Source of the DNA: Methanosarcina sp.
GTDB taxonomy: Archaea > Halobacteriota > Methanosarcinia > Methanosarcinales > Methanosarcinaceae
Reading direction: 5' to 3'
NCBI RefSeq assembly: GCF_028693135.1
Contig: NZ_JAQUVZ010000022.1
Coordinates: 1 to 57,027, forward strand
DNA: 57,027 nucleotides
The notes under the pieces: generated by a model
The model's database searches: none
The model's input: the letters and a program-made list of their open reading frames with translations, nothing else
Told to the model about the DNA's origin: nothing
Made by a program: the position numbers and the translations under genes
In this document: positions 8,143-53,558 of the stretch, in pieces
Position numbering within the stretch: the stretch's first letter is position 1
How the letters are laid out: every line of letters starts with the position of its first letter

Positions 8143-8243
8143 AAAGTCAGGCTGTTAACAGTTATAATAATATAGGCCGAAACAGAATATAGAATTTAAG
8201 ATAGATGCCAGATAAACTCGAAAAAACTAAAGGACTAGTTTTC

Positions 8244-9707
8244 ATGAAAACTATTGAGACCCTTAAAGTAAAAAACCGGATAAAAATCTCAAATTTTATC
8301 GCCGGTCTTATACTTATTCTATTTTTTGCAGTAACTATACTTCCAGTTTCGGCTTCCGGAATTGAGGCAAGCAGGGAGATTTCTGCAGGAACAGTTTATG
8401 CAGGTGGAACTTTCACAGTAACCATGCACATACAGACAGACCAGTATATTGAAGCTCTCACCCTTGATGAAAACCTTCCTGTTGGATGGGATATAACTAT
8501 AGTTGATAATGATGGGGCTACGTTCCAGAATTCCGAGACTTTCAAAAAGTCTACCCTGGAATGGATCTGGGTCGAGAGCCTTCAGGCAGGCGGGGAAAAA
8601 ACGGTTGTGTACAGGGTTACAGCGCCTTTAGTTGCTGAACCTGGAAATTTCACAATCTCAGGTAATGTTTCCGCGTATTCCATCTCCGCTGTTCCTGTTA
8701 CAGGAGCTTCGGAAATAATTCTCACATACCCTCCTCCTGAAGCCGGATTTTCTGCAAGCCCTCTCTCCGGCATCGTGCCCCTTACAGTCCAGTTCACGGA
8801 CTTATGTACAGGCAACACGGATTCCTGGGAATGGGATTTTGATGGAAACGGAAGTACCGACTCTACAGAGAAAAATCCGGCATGGACATATGAAATCCCG
8901 GGCACCTATACTGTCACTCTCATAGCAACCAACACTACCTATGGAAACGATGCCGAGACAAAAACAGGTTATATCACAGTCACTGAGAAAACCTCGTCTT
9001 CCGGAGGAAGTAGTGGAGGTGGAGGTGGAGGCTCTTCGGAATCAAGCCGGAACATAGAGCTCAAGGAGATTTCAAATGAGCAGGTCTTCAAAGGAATCCA
9101 CACCTGCTACACCTTCAAAGGAGAGACAAACGAAATAGTTGCTGTGGAGTTTGACCCGAAAAAGAACTTTGGGAAAATAACCACAATTGTGGAGATTCTA
9201 AAGAACACGTCCTCAATAGTGAAAGAACCTGCCCCCGGAACCGTCTACAGAAACCTGAATATCTGGGTTGGAAGCAATGGATTTTCAAGCTCTGAAAACC
9301 TTGAAAATGCCCGGATAAGCTTCAGGGTAAACAAGACATGGCTCTCCGAAAACGGCATTAATGAAAACACAATGATCCTGTACAGGTACAGTGAAAATAT
9401 GTGGGGTGCACTACCCACAACCCTGACCGGAGAAGACCAGGATTACTTCTACTTTAACGCAGAAACCCCGGGATTTTCGCCTTTTGCGATCGCAAGCCCG
9501 GAAAAAAATACACAATTGGTTGAAATAAACCCAATTAGAAATGAAGACAGTACTGTTATGAGCACAGCAGAAATATCCGGAGAAGAAAGTGGAGAAGATC
9601 TGGCTTCGGATAACGAAAAGGAAGATGCCCCCGGAGCTGGAGTTTCATTTACGGTAGCCGGCCTTCTGGCATCATACGCAGCCCTGAAGAGAAGGAAGAT
9701 AAAATAA
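8244..9707 (+). CDS. PKD domain surface protein with PGF-pre-PGF domain and PGF-CTERM-like tail
   Basis: A signal peptide (IAGLILILFFAVTILPVSASG) leads to a beta domain, then one PKD domain (PEAGFSASPLSGIVPLTVQF through WEWDFDGNG to GTYTVTL, roughly residues 165-250). A Ser/Gly-rich linker follows, then a PGF-pre-PGF domain (NIWVGSNGF, WLSENGINENTMILYRY, PGFSPFAIAS). The tail APGAGVSFTVAGLLASYAALKRRK is an archaeosortase-type sorting signal, so the protein is expected on the outer face, lipid-anchored. I chose ATG 8244 because AAGGA lies about ten bases upstream; an in-frame ATG at 8205 adds 13 residues but lacks an SD. Function is probably structural or adhesive. Confidence 0.85.
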   Translation: MKTIETLKVKNRIKISNFIAGLILILFFAVTILPVSASGIEASREISAGTVYAGGTFTVTMHIQTDQYIEALTLDENLPVGWDITIVDNDGATFQNSETFKKSTLEWIWVESLQAGGEKTVVYRVTAPLVAEPGNFTISGNVSAYSISAVPVTGASEIILTYPPPEAGFSASPLSGIVPLTVQFTDLCTGNTDSWEWDFDGNGSTDSTEKNPAWTYEIPGTYTVTLIATNTTYGNDAETKTGYITVTEKTSSSGGSSGGGGGGSSESSRNIELKEISNEQVFKGIHTCYTFKGETNEIVAVEFDPKKNFGKITTIVEILKNTSSIVKEPAPGTVYRNLNIWVGSNGFSSSENLENARISFRVNKTWLSENGINENTMILYRYSENMWGALPTTLTGEDQDYFYFNAETPGFSPFAIASPEKNTQLVEINPIRNEDSTVMSTAEISGEESGEDLASDNEKEDAPGAGVSFTVAGLLASYAALKRRKIK

Positions 9708-9747: not shown

Positions 9748-9960
9748 CCCGAATTGCGCCTCTCCCGAATTGCGCATCGGGAGTACGCGGTCCTTTTCGC
9801 TGCGCTCAAGAGGACTACTTTTTGGTATTTAGTAGTGAGATTCGCTCAAGAGGACTACTTGATGGATTATAGTAGTGAGCTTCATTCAAGAGGACAGAAT
9901 TATAAATATTTCTGATCCGTACAACCTTATTCACTATACTGAGTCGTTCTTGTCACGCTC
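9748..9960 (+). repeat. Dispersed repeat block A, copy 1
   Basis: Two copies of CCCGAATTGCGC (9748, 9764) are followed by TCGGGAG, making a 7-bp perfect hairpin (9762-9783). After that comes a 38-base core that matches 53037-53074 at 36 positions. A 40-bp tandem unit starting GCTCAAGAGGACTACT repeats at 9804, 9844 and 9884 (last copy partial). The second copy of the whole block is at 53005. No plausible protein is encoded. It may be a mobile or RNA-encoding element; the kind is unknown. Confidence 0.75.
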
Positions 9961-10050
9961 GACGCAGGAGAGCGGCCTTCAGACAAAAAGAAAGAAGAAA
10001 AGAGAGTAAGAAGAGATAAACCAGAAGTAACAGCGACCAAGTAAACCGGT

Positions 10051-10390
10051 AAGAGACTCACAGATAACCAACAGAGAACTAACAGATAACCAACAGAGAA
10101 CTAACAGATAACCAACAGAGAACTCACAGATAACCAACAGAGAACTAACAGATAACCAACAGAGAACTAACAGATAACCAACAGAGAACTCACAGATAAC
10201 CAACAGAGAACTAACAGATAACCAACAGAGAACTAACAGATAACCAACAGATAACCAACAGATAACCAACAGATAACCAACAGATAACCAACAGATAACC
10301 AACAGAGAACTAACAGATAACCAACAGAGAACTAACAGATAACCAACAGAGAACTAACAGATAACCAATAGGTAACCAACAGGTAACTGA
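10051..10390. repeat. 11/22-bp minisatellite
   Basis: About 31 copies of an 11-base unit occur in two main versions, AACAGAGAACT and AACAGATAACC. They mostly alternate as a 22-base unit, with a run of pure AACAGATAACC near 10245-10305. A long minus-strand reading frame across it is a by-product of the periodicity (33 bases equal three units) and is not called as a gene. The array sits between blocks A and B of the dispersed repeat. Confidence 0.9.
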
Positions 10391-10520
10391 TAAGTAAAAG
10401 CAACCGAAAAAAATGTGTTGAATACAAACAAAGTAAATACTGCCTGCAAAACACTCTTTTTCAACTATCTTTTTTATTGCTATTATATTTTATCCAAATT
10501 ATTTTTCTTCTTTCTTTTTT

Positions 10521-10585
10521 TGACCGGCCGCCAGACAAGCTGGTGGGGGGTGTTATATACAGATGGGAATTGAAAACCGCCTCCC
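10521..10585 (+). repeat. Dispersed repeat block B, copy 1
   Basis: Starting at TTTGACCGGCCGCCAG, this block aligns with 53276-53330 with about 70% identity by eye. CCGCCAG and CTGGTGG can form a 7-bp stem (one G-U) with loop ACAAG. A G-run follows. Confidence 0.6.
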
Positions 10586-10634
10586 TGGAAGGAAAAAAAT
10601 ATTTCTCAGGCAGGGAGGGGGATTTCTAGCAATA

Positions 10635-11585
10635 TCATATATGTCCGCACTTCTCAAGCCAGGTAAGGGACCTTATCCATTCTCCTTTTGGCTCCCTTGA
10701 GGTGCCAATGACAAGCCGCTTCATATCTCCGAATTCTTCAACCACACCGCGGGCTTCTATGATCTCGCCGGGGAGAGCCTGGCCTGCATAGGTGTGGGTA
10801 TAGGAGAGTACATGGTCGATCTCATCATGTTCTACTTTGTAATAGGAAGGGCTGTCAAAGGCAAAATCAGCGTTTTTGACCTCGGCTTCGATTTTCATTT
10901 TGACAGTGTCTTTTCCCCTCGGTAGAGGCTCTTTGATCTGATCCCACTCCCGCACGAAGAGAAGGTCAAAATAAGTGCCCTCTACCATGCCACGGTTGCC
11001 TTTCCTGGACTCGTGCAGCATGAATTCGTCAAAAGAAATCTCAGGGATTCTTTTCCTGTAGATTCTTTGCCACATATCCTCATCGAGCTCTTTGATAGGG
11101 CCCTCCTGTTGTTTTGCAACGGCTATGGCATCCCTTGCCCTGAACCACATAGGACCGTAAACAACAAAATCGACATCAGAGCTCTCATTTTGCAGACCTG
11201 CAAGCATTGAACCCGTAACTCCCATACTTGTCCTGGGAATTTCTGCCATATCAAGCACCTTTACGATCGCCCTTACCCGGCTGTCGGAATTCACAAGCTC
11301 CGGGATGCAGTCAGAGGGGCGCAGTACCTTCTTTACCTCAGGCTCCGGGACAACGTGCACGTCCTGGACCCATTCAGGCCTGTTTTCTTTCATGAATTCA
11401 AAAGCAGGGCCAAAATCGTATTTTTTGTACCGTTTCCCATTTAACTCCCTCTCCCCGTTTTCATCCGGAACGTAGCGGAGTGTGGCTCTTATTCCATCGG
11501 TACGGAAGTAGTCAGAAACCGCAAAAAGCCAGTCATCTTTTGTAAGAAGAAAATCCCTCAGGCGTGTTTTAAGCATTTGTATCAT
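10635..11585 (-). CDS. Predicted archaeal nucleotidyltransferase-domain protein
   Basis: The centre of this 316-residue protein has GVTGSMLAGLQNESSDVDFVVYG. The GS motif with a D-x-D pair is the signature of the nucleotidyltransferase superfamily (metal-binding aspartates in DVDF). An N-terminal region (LTKDDWLFAVSDYFRTDGIRATLRYVPDENG) and a C-terminal beta region (ALPGEIIEARGVVEEFGDMKRLVIGTS) flank it. It resembles the uncharacterised archaeal group called predicted nucleotidyltransferase (COG1665). The substrate is unknown. It is transcribed toward the dispersed repeat, with no partner gene. A second in-frame ATG at 11576 is possible. Confidence 0.8.
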   Translation of the reverse strand: MIQMLKTRLRDFLLTKDDWLFAVSDYFRTDGIRATLRYVPDENGERELNGKRYKKYDFGPAFEFMKENRPEWVQDVHVVPEPEVKKVLRPSDCIPELVNSDSRVRAIVKVLDMAEIPRTSMGVTGSMLAGLQNESSDVDFVVYGPMWFRARDAIAVAKQQEGPIKELDEDMWQRIYRKRIPEISFDEFMLHESRKGNRGMVEGTYFDLLFVREWDQIKEPLPRGKDTVKMKIEAEVKNADFAFDSPSYYKVEHDEIDHVLSYTHTYAGQALPGEIIEARGVVEEFGDMKRLVIGTSREPKGEWIRSLTWLEKCGHI

Positions 11586-23921: not shown

Positions 23922-25013
23922 ATGGATTTCATAGATCAAATTCAAGAACTTGCAGCAAGGATTCCAAAGCTACGGGAAAACATTAAAACCGAAGAGGCTA
24001 CAAAAAATGCTCTCGTAATGCCTCTAATTAACATATTGGGCTACAATGTTTTTGATCCCGGAGAGGTAGTTCCCGAGTACACCGCAGACTTTGGAACCAA
24101 AAAAGGAGAAAAAGTTGATTATGCTATTTTCAAGGATGAAAAACCTGTCATACTAATCGAATGTAAAACTATTGATGCTGACCTGGACAGAGAGCATGCT
24201 TCTCAACTATTCAGATATTTCAGTGTAACTGATGCAAAAATAGGAATCTTGACAAACGGCATAATCTATCGGTTTTATACTGATCTTGATTCTCCAAACA
24301 AAATGGACGATAAGTCTTTCCTTGAGGTCAATTTCCTGGATATTAAAGAACCATTAATAAATGAGCTTAAAAGGTTCAGGAAAGAATCCTTTGATATTGA
24401 TGATCTTGCTACTGTGGCCTGTGAATTGAAGTACACAAGAGAGATAAAACAGATTCTTGCGAGAGAGATTAATTCTCCCTCAGAAGATTTTGTGAAATAC
24501 TTTGCAAAACAGGTACATAACGTACCATTCACTCAGAATGTCCGTGAGAAATTTACAGGAATCACAAAGAACGCACTTGGTCAATTTATAAATGAAAAAA
24601 TCAACGAGAGACTGAAACTCGCTATGTCAGAAGGATCTGTCGAAGCCATATCAGACAAAAATAACGGACAGGAAACCCCCGATATAATGGAAGTATTAAA
24701 TGATGGTGTCGTGACAACGGAAGAAGAAATTGAAGGATACCATATAATAAAATCAATCCTGCGCTCAACCATTGATCCAAAAAGAATCGTAATGAGAGAC
24801 AAAAAGAATTATTGTGGGATATTGCTGGATAATAACAATAGAAAACCCATCTGCAGGTTGCACTTTAGTACCAGGCAAAAGTATCTTGAACTTTTTGTCG
24901 ATGAAGACCGAAAATCTGAAAAAACTCCAATCAACGAGTTGAATGATATATACAGTTATTCGGATCAGTTAATAACCACATTAAATAGTTACGAGAACGA
25001 CGTCCATAAGTAA
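23922..25013 (+). CDS. Stand-alone HsdR-N domain protein (type I restriction R-subunit-like nuclease domain)
   Basis: Residues 1-150 match the N-terminal nuclease region of type I restriction R subunits: TEEATKNALVMPLINILGYNVFDP, then VDYAIFKDEKPVILIECKTID, which supplies the PD-(D/E)XK residues (Asp in VDYA, Glu and Lys in IECK). HASQLFRYFSVTDAKIGILTNG follows. No DEAD helicase domain is present: the rest (about residues 160-363) has no recognised motor motifs and ends in a beta region. Neither HsdM nor HsdS is nearby. It could be a DNA-directed defence or repair nuclease; that is inference. The SD is strong (GAAGGAG). Confidence 0.85.
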   Translation: MDFIDQIQELAARIPKLRENIKTEEATKNALVMPLINILGYNVFDPGEVVPEYTADFGTKKGEKVDYAIFKDEKPVILIECKTIDADLDREHASQLFRYFSVTDAKIGILTNGIIYRFYTDLDSPNKMDDKSFLEVNFLDIKEPLINELKRFRKESFDIDDLATVACELKYTREIKQILAREINSPSEDFVKYFAKQVHNVPFTQNVREKFTGITKNALGQFINEKINERLKLAMSEGSVEAISDKNNGQETPDIMEVLNDGVVTTEEEIEGYHIIKSILRSTIDPKRIVMRDKKNYCGILLDNNNRKPICRLHFSTRQKYLELFVDEDRKSEKTPINELNDIYSYSDQLITTLNSYENDVHK

Positions 25014-25214
25014 GGAACAGGGATAACATTACTGGTATTATGGATTTTTGACTGGAAAATCTCTTATTCTAATACTTTGAAGAACCACCCCAAAAATTAA
25101 GGGCGTTTCGATTAGGCTTATCAAAATGGTCCGGCCAGTAAAAAATAAAAAACAAGACTTAAACATAGAGCAAATGGGTCAATAATCAATTAATCCGGAA
25201 GAAAGAGGGGAACG

Positions 25215-25670
25215 GTGAATAAAAGAATATTAATATGTATTTTATTTTTCTTCGTTTGCATTGCCATACTAGCTGCGGGGTGCCTGGAAAAAGAGTTTGT
25301 TAGGGAGAGGCAGGTAGCTACTTACCAGGATGTATACGAGGGGGAAAGTGAGAACTGGAAAGCAAAGTTTGTGCAAAACGTAACGGAATTTACCCTGCCT
25401 GCGGATGATGAAATACTTTATTATGTAGATGGTGAGATAATCCTTACATATAAAGGCAATCTTTCAGAGTTGTCTTCCGTACAAGTAATTGAATATTCTT
25501 ATGTGCGTAATTCGGGCGAAGGAGGATGGACGGAGGCGAACCCCCACAAAAGGGTTTATGGGGGTAAATTCTCTTACGGTGGGAGTCTGATAGACAGAAG
25601 TGAGGCATTCAATGTTATAGTTGGTCTGGACGGAAAAAAAGAAACAATTGAAGTAAAAAAGATTGGATGA
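25215..25670 (+). CDS. Predicted lipoprotein, function unknown
   Basis: A 151-residue protein that starts at GTG behind AGAGGGG. The N-terminus is a lipoprotein signal: NKRILICILFFFVCIAILAAGC, with the lipobox LAAGC placing the lipid-modified cysteine at about residue 23. The exported part has no motif I recognise; it is polar and beta-rich. No partner gene is evident: the upstream neighbour ends about 200 bases away and the next gene is convergent. Confidence 0.75.
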   Translation: MNKRILICILFFFVCIAILAAGCLEKEFVRERQVATYQDVYEGESENWKAKFVQNVTEFTLPADDEILYYVDGEIILTYKGNLSELSSVQVIEYSYVRNSGEGGWTEANPHKRVYGGKFSYGGSLIDRSEAFNVIVGLDGKKETIEVKKIG

Positions 25671-53004: not shown

Positions 53005-53165
53005 CCCGAGTTTCGCCGCCCGAGTTTCGCTTCGGGAGCACGAGGTCCTTTTCGCTGCGCTCAAGAGGACTACTTGATGGATTTTAGAAGTGAAATTTGC
53101 TCGAGAGAACCAATTTTCAAATTTTTCTGACCAGTGTAATAGTAATTCTCCATACCGGGTTGTTC
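53005..53165 (+). repeat. Dispersed repeat block A, copy 2
   Basis: CCCGAGTTTCGC occurs at 53005 and 53019, then TCGGG closes a hairpin (53019-53036). The core 53037-53074 matches 9782-9819 at 36 of 38 bases, and the 40-bp unit appears at 53059 and, degenerate, at 53099. The hairpin stem is kept although its loop differs from copy 1. Confidence 0.75.
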
Positions 53166-53275
53166 CGGTCACTACACGGCTTTTTAGTGTGTTTTATTAC
53201 TTTTTAAAGCCATTTATTGCTTTTTACAGTTTTTTAAGACTTTTAAAAACGGTTTTACTCCAAATCTGTCTTCTC

Positions 53276-53330
53276 TTTTGACGGGCCGCCAGAAAAGTTG
53301 GAGGGAGCGTTTATATTTACATGTGAATTG
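53276..53330 (+). repeat. Dispersed repeat block B, copy 2
   Basis: TTTTGACGGGCCGCCAGAAA and what follows align with 10521-10585. Block A to block B distance is about 270 bases from start to start; in copy 1 it is about 770, of which 340 is the minisatellite. Confidence 0.6.
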
Positions 53331-53529
53331 AATATCGGTTTTCGGGGTTAAGGGAAGTATTTTTTTAGCTCAGGGGACACTTTTTAAGTATATTATTTCT
53401 TTTAATTGAGGTACTGGTTTGAAGGTCATTTTTTCTAGCTGGCAGGCTGGCTCAGTTCCGAGCAGTGCGGGGAGATAAAATGAAAAATCTCCTCCCGGAT
53501 TCCGGAATAGATCAAACAATTAATCAGGG

Positions 53530-53558
53530 GGCACAAGGGTATCCTGATATCCCGTGCC
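53530..53558 (-). terminator. Strong hairpin immediately after the cysteine-cluster gene
   Basis: GGCAC...GTGCC outer arms and GGG-TATC/GATA-T-CCC inner arms with a 2-base loop abut the stop codon at 53559. No T-tract follows, so it may be a processing or stability element. Confidence 0.45.

Follow-up and report, generated by a model that had tools for sequence, protein, structure and literature searches.

A non-autonomous transposon family in Methanosarcina intergenic DNA that probably carries a captured hairpin motif

MITEs are known in archaea, and those of prokaryotes typically measure less than 500 bp (PMC10969869). The element family described here shares with several prokaryotic MITEs (e.g., QMITE of Coxiella, Chunjie, and the Correia elements; PMC10969869) its terminal inverted repeats (TIRs), short target duplications, and absence of a transposase gene, as well as its many intergenic copies, the truncated ones of which resemble hairpin repeats. 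It differs from these MITEs in its length (0.54–0.94 kb), in an interior that is not derived from an insertion sequence (IS) and is built of tandem hairpin units, and in containing an interior motif, here designated T, that is found in another genus in the absence of the MITE. Members of the IS1 family (PF03400) have matching ends and the same 8-bp duplication, whereas the present element is without transposase sequence and its ends agree with theirs at no more than 26 of 34 positions. REP and BIME palindromes with RAYT are likewise dispersed intergenic hairpins, and T alone is similar to them in size; unlike them, the element has 8-bp duplications and long TIRs. The element also has T-rich tracts at the exit of its spacer in each direction, as do archaeal U-tract terminators (PMC8716108, PMC7515710), but here the hairpin of block B comes after the U-tract rather than before it, and the structure is at most a putative terminator. 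No published description of this repeat was found by sequence or by topic (most subscription papers lay outside the search, and an earlier description is possible). While MITEs themselves are known, what appears to be new is a MITE-type element whose interior holds a conserved motif living independently elsewhere. The two loci that drew attention to the family lie in a 57,027-nt stretch of DNA, referred to below as the window, which is contig C28 of a Methanosarcina genome (4.22 Mb in 89 contigs); they are very probably old, end-less copies of a Methanosarcina non-autonomous transposon family that carries T as a captured motif.

A sequence-only reading of the window had described a two-block repeat (blocks A and B) at about 9.75 kb and 53.0 kb. 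Inspection of the sequence and TRF found the duplicated CCCGA boxes, the GGTCCTTTTCGCTGCGCTCAAGAGGACTACTT core, the 40-bp tandem unit, and the CCGCCAG hairpins at both loci where that reading had placed them, with identical block order and orientation. The blocks are real, but they belong to a longer element that has further conserved parts beyond those noted, including T in copy 1 (9911–9981) and a right end in copy 2 (approximately 53500–53535). Copy 1, on the forward strand, begins 40 nt past the stop codon of an upstream neighbour gene (8205–9707, forward strand) and faces a convergent downstream gene (10635–11585, reverse strand; own gene calls). Its duplicated CCCGA boxes (9748–9788) start at 9748 and 9764; the second box makes the P hairpin (CCCGA 9764–9768/TCGGG 9777–9781), as indicated by the sequence and by compensatory variants across copies, and variants of the same kind indicate that the loop bases TTGCG (9770–9774) are able to pair with CGCGG downstream (9786–9790). 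These boxes are followed by the core of block A with its 40-bp tandem unit (GGTCCTTTTCGC..CAAGAGGACTACTTGATGG; 9789–9895, with the TRF call at 9803–9895 and more than 60 matches in the own genome), by T with its invariant hairpin core (GTCACGCTCGACGCAGGAGAGCGGC; 9952–9976, located by core pattern matches), by a variable A-rich to T-rich spacer (9985–10505; TRF and a flip in AT skew over 48 copies), and by block B (10506–10640), in which a T-run precedes the hairpin CCGCCAG/CTGGTGG (10527–10546) and which stops short of the right inverted repeat. An 11-bp tandem array (ACAGATAACCA, about 30 copies) occupies window positions 10060–10387 of this spacer according to TRF; the ortholog of copy 1 in the close species G008 has a different array (TAACTAACAAA type) in the corresponding position.

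Copy 2 is also on the forward strand and contains duplicated CCCGA boxes (53005–53043, starting at 53005 and 53019), a P hairpin (CCCGA 53019–53023/TCGGG 53032–53036) with the loop TTTCG and the downstream partner CGAGG, and the block A core together with a degenerate T (53044–53172); an nhmmer match to T positions 3–85 covers only the 5′ half of T, the T hairpin being lost. Block B of this copy (53243–53435, hairpin at 53285–53304) was recognised by profile and hairpin-pattern matches, and a degenerate right TIR (GGAATAGATCAAACAATTAATCAGGGGGCAC; 53500–53535, reverse strand) by comparison by eye with the right ends of other copies. This right end is the only one that copy 2 has kept, and copy 1 has lost both of its ends; since neither window copy has both, their membership in the family rests on the interior.

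The repeat extends well beyond these two loci, the case that they might be the only copies having been raised by the sequence-only reading; the own genome contains about 60 or more copies of each block. The matches listed numbered more than 60 for block A and more than 40 for block B, while the B hairpin pattern matched 65 times (reversed-pattern control, 0) and the T core pattern 68 times (control, 0), all genome-wide counts being derived from searches and sequence stretches. These counts exclude chance for the repeat blocks. Wherever a locus that was read contains two or more parts, they stand in the fixed order A, tail motif T, spacer, B, in one orientation.

Beyond block B the element terminates abruptly in ..GAATAATATCAACCGATTAATCAGGAACCACC, and the inverted counterpart of this right end (GGTCGTCCACTGTTACATGGTTGATATTTTTGAA) opens several copies; full-length copies, i.e., those with both ends, span 538–943 bp and have TIRs of about 34 bp. 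The TIR pattern matched 46 times in the own genome and its reversed-pattern control not at all, and the control of a genus-wide search was likewise without a match. Perfect 8-bp target duplications (8/8) flank three copies (C25, AAACGATA; C13, CTTGTTTT; C18, ATTAATCA), two other copies have duplications of 7/8 and 6/8, and none is left in older copies. One 727-bp copy (C18:75720–76446) is absent from the same place in G008 (near 1,395,550), where the flanks are about 90% identical; when one of the two 8-bp copies is taken out, the alignment of the joined flanks has one 1-nt gap over 279 positions, whereas leaving both in opens an 8-nt gap at the junction. A copy on C55 is also missing from G008, less cleanly. 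The TIRs, the 8-bp duplications, the empty site, and the matching IS1-type ends described below show that the family is a MITE-type non-autonomous transposon, although its length from TIR to TIR exceeds 500 bp, a size limit that is typical of MITEs rather than strictly defining. Among the three explanations first offered (i.e., an RNA gene family, a non-autonomous mobile element, or a regulatory repeat), these features establish the mobile element for the family. An RNA gene family finds no support in folding or Rfam, considered below, and a regulatory role is possible, T keeping one place behind the same gene in two genera. No coding capacity was found in the element, the coding check of the spacer covering some of the copies. 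The reading frame through T gave no Pfam match and no coding signal, the entropy of its three codon positions being equal (0.655/0.608/0.671) and stops occurring in 19 of 84 sequences; a short T-encoded protein (SDPYNLI..FLSRSTQESGL) is ruled out by this lack of a codon-position signal, the frequent stops, and the absence of a database match.

A candidate source of transposase was found in the 800 kb of G008 that were examined, where an element of 1165 bp has similar ends, a perfect target duplication, and an IS1-family transposase (PF03400, E = 4.4e-9) encoded in two overlapping reading frames of 146 and 227 aa. Across the genus this IS subgroup measures 1162–1166 bp and has 8/8 target duplications, and one copy is present in the own genome (C34, about 24196–25361). 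Its ends agree with those of the MITE at up to 26 of 34 positions (shuffled sequences, 19 at the 99.9% level and 23 at most) and are similar, not identical, whereas the ends of a 740-bp IS1 group agree at 15 of 34. We infer that an IS1-type transposase moves the MITE in trans. The suggestion that the blocks might align to the end of a known insertion sequence holds in part, in that neither block is itself an IS end, but the element containing them is bounded by ends of the IS1 type. Another Methanosarcina genome (G002) shows a very large expansion of the IS1 family, with 48 transposase matches mostly of the group of about 740 bp, and has a single T copy.

Comparison of orthologous sites shows that the window copies are old and are decaying part by part. 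G008 has the same upstream gene and the element at the equivalent place (L081), which makes copy 1 an old insertion. At the site of copy 2, T still stands between the left flank and B in G008, and in the relative G011 the left flank and B directly abut, block A being missing. Sequence identity at orthologous sites was 87% for T, 85% for B, 79% for the rest of the element, and 89% for the mostly coding flank, and whole parts of the element are gone at some sites; constraint after insertion is weak, T and B changing only somewhat more slowly than the rest of the element and not more slowly than the flank. In G008, the site of the own-genome copy on C88 (C1 near 1,019,850; G8a 19,850) has kept B, and T and block A are replaced there by a stretch that we take to resemble the tail of an IS200/IS605 element.

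The spacer and the placement of the copies relative to genes bear on whether the element is also a bidirectional transcription terminator, in which the A-rich to T-rich spacer would stop transcripts arriving from both sides and which hosts would tolerate or use between convergent genes. In 48 copies the AT skew between T and B changes sign, from +0.58 to −0.60, and 23 of 72 elements lie at convergent sites, whereas 42 of the 237 intergenic regions of comparable kind (long ones) are convergent (odds ratio 2.2, p = 0.013); since archaeal transcription termination depends on U-tracts (PMC8716108, PMC7515710), both observations fit such a role. The enrichment is modest, however, with 49 of the 72 sites not convergent, and T occurs without spacer and B in other species. 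A terminator function is possible on this evidence, and we regard it as tentative.

Motif T has a distribution of its own. Its core (GTCACGCTCGACGMAGGAGAGCGG) was found in 29 of 31 Methanosarcina genomes, in up to 68 copies (control, 0). Each of the four genomes from a sister genus (g5) has it, it occurs once in another, and the 76 further genomes searched in the family lack it. There was no match to the T core pattern in viruses and none to the T peptide in plasmids, and database records with the exact core belong to Methanosarcina or to MAGs of related or mixed origin. Three bacterial MAG contigs labelled Candidatus Cloacimonadota STD2_63 (L227, L237, and L241) carry the Methanosarcina T core and are probably misbinned archaeal contigs. 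In the sister genus and in low-copy Methanosarcina species, no MITE ends were found near T, and B was present in only one of 20 stretches (L299, a Methanosarcina). T sites take several forms, in which the upstream 40 nt differ while a core of about 30 nt stays, and the flanks are entirely unlike between sites right up to the edge of the core. In seven genomes from two genera, the own genome included (G000, G008, G015, and G036–G039), T lies on the strand of a zinc-ribbon gene, 104–142 nt past its stop; this gene (..CKRCKYTEFYQADSSMLGNIFDLFT*) is so named from its CxxC pattern and not from a family search. T stands behind it in further genomes too, and four genomes (G006, G014, G019, and G024) have the gene without an adjoining T. 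By our own gene calls, which leave many neighbours uncalled, T was located 3′ of a co-oriented gene 39 times versus 16 (p = 0.003). That T occurs apart from MITE ends both in the sister genus and in low-copy Methanosarcina, and stands behind the same gene in two genera, indicates that it predates the MITE's spread or is independent of it. In three low-copy species (G028, G003, and G004; L313, L332, and L337, respectively), tandem arrays were observed that consist of two or three units of about 300–420 nt with one T each.

These MITE-free sites might instead be very old MITE copies with decayed ends and no function, the conservation of T being an artefact of the bait. Because the set was collected with the core as search pattern, the conservation of the core is in part a matter of ascertainment, and most T sites have no gene in common, as this explanation would predict. 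Nevertheless, conservation extends past the search pattern on both sides (TT before and CCTT after it), the stem-foot positions 0 and 24 covary (GC 65, GU 6, AU 4) although position 24 lies outside the pattern, and one site stays in position and on its strand across two genera while the preceding 40 nt differ, so we consider decayed, functionless copies unlikely. T looks constrained, and is most likely a structured RNA element of the 3′ region.

Structure is also the subject of the compensatory changes seen among copies. The loop difference between the two window copies (ATTGCGCA against GTTTCGCT), from which selection on structure had first been suspected, is present and is matched by a downstream difference (TACGCGG against CACGAGG). 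The suspicion gains support from the family at large, which shows compensatory changes in the P hairpin, in its loop-downstream pair, and at the foot of the T stem. The P hairpin CCCGA-loop-TCGGG has a variant GCAGA-loop-TCTGC in which two of five pairs are changed on both sides, and the loop-downstream (pseudoknot) pairs include TTGCG/CGCGG, TTTCG/CGAGG, TTCCG/CGG, TCCCG/CGG, and, once, CCT/AGG. In a set of 60 anchored sequences that includes about 10 chance matches, pairing is seen in 84% of stem cells and 81% of loop-downstream cells, more than in any of 500 shuffles or any slid register. An extra inserted module forms a hairpin in three versions (GTTGCAC..GTGCAAC, GTTTCAC..GTGAAAC, and GTTGCGA..TCGCAAC). 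These changes are those expected under structural selection and support it, with the qualification that the events are few, that related copies are counted repeatedly, and that exchange between tandem units could spread them. Running RNAalifold over the full sets of B or T copies yielded little; the B hairpin is nearly invariant and its changes are single-sided, so B neither supports nor refutes RNA. In one place in the own genome (C41:1319–1475), several 39-bp copies of the P hairpin and the start of the core stand head to tail.

The structured modules with their compensatory changes, the presence of T without MITE ends in two genera, and the tandem T units of about 416 nt in low-copy species could together be read as free-standing genes for small RNAs, every copy having a promoter of its own, that spread by duplication instead of transposition. 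We consider this very unlikely, because the TIRs, 8-bp duplications, and empty site show that the high-copy form transposes, no conserved TATA-like column was found upstream of T, and eleven full copies fold better than dinucleotide shuffles to the same degree on both strands (mean z of −2.21 and −2.25), which does not favour RNA over structured DNA. A known RNA family is ruled out by the absence of any match of the element to the covariance models of Rfam 15. Y1 transposition does not produce long TIRs or 8-bp duplications; as the mobile unit has both, and the empty site covers the whole unit from TIR to TIR, there is similarly little to recommend a REP-like DNA element whose T and B hairpins are single-stranded substrates of a Y1 (IS200/IS605 or RAYT) transposase with the IS1-type ends secondary, even though the family consists of short dispersed palindromes in intergenic DNA, its hairpins are equally good on both strands, and T flanks are wholly different up to the core edge.

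A MITE mobilised by an IS1-type transposase remains the preferred explanation. Under this model, the transposon would have captured T and then multiplied it, T and its variant, hairpin P, would be a structured element, most likely RNA, at or near transcript 3′ ends, and the tandem units (i.e., the CCCGA boxes, the 40-bp unit, and the spacer arrays) would expand and contract by slippage and recombination. A more far-reaching proposal, which we put forward as speculative, is that T is an undescribed structured RNA element of the Methanosarcinaceae that two or more genera retain behind particular genes. An IS1-type MITE would have captured this element and carried it to some 50–70 places per genome in several Methanosarcina species, rewiring the 3′ regions of many genes. 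The MITE family makes up a visible share of the intergenic DNA in a model methanogen genus and accounts for many unexplained repeats; if T is a functional 3′-region element copied by a transposon, the family would be a clear example from archaea of ready-made regulatory structure being distributed by a mobile element.

The own genome also contains short sister MITEs of 180–220 bp (C58:127516–127734, C80:20346–20564, C50:13312–13491, C71:25956–26137, and C64:15102–15281), which have similar ends, 8-bp duplications, and a different but partly related interior.
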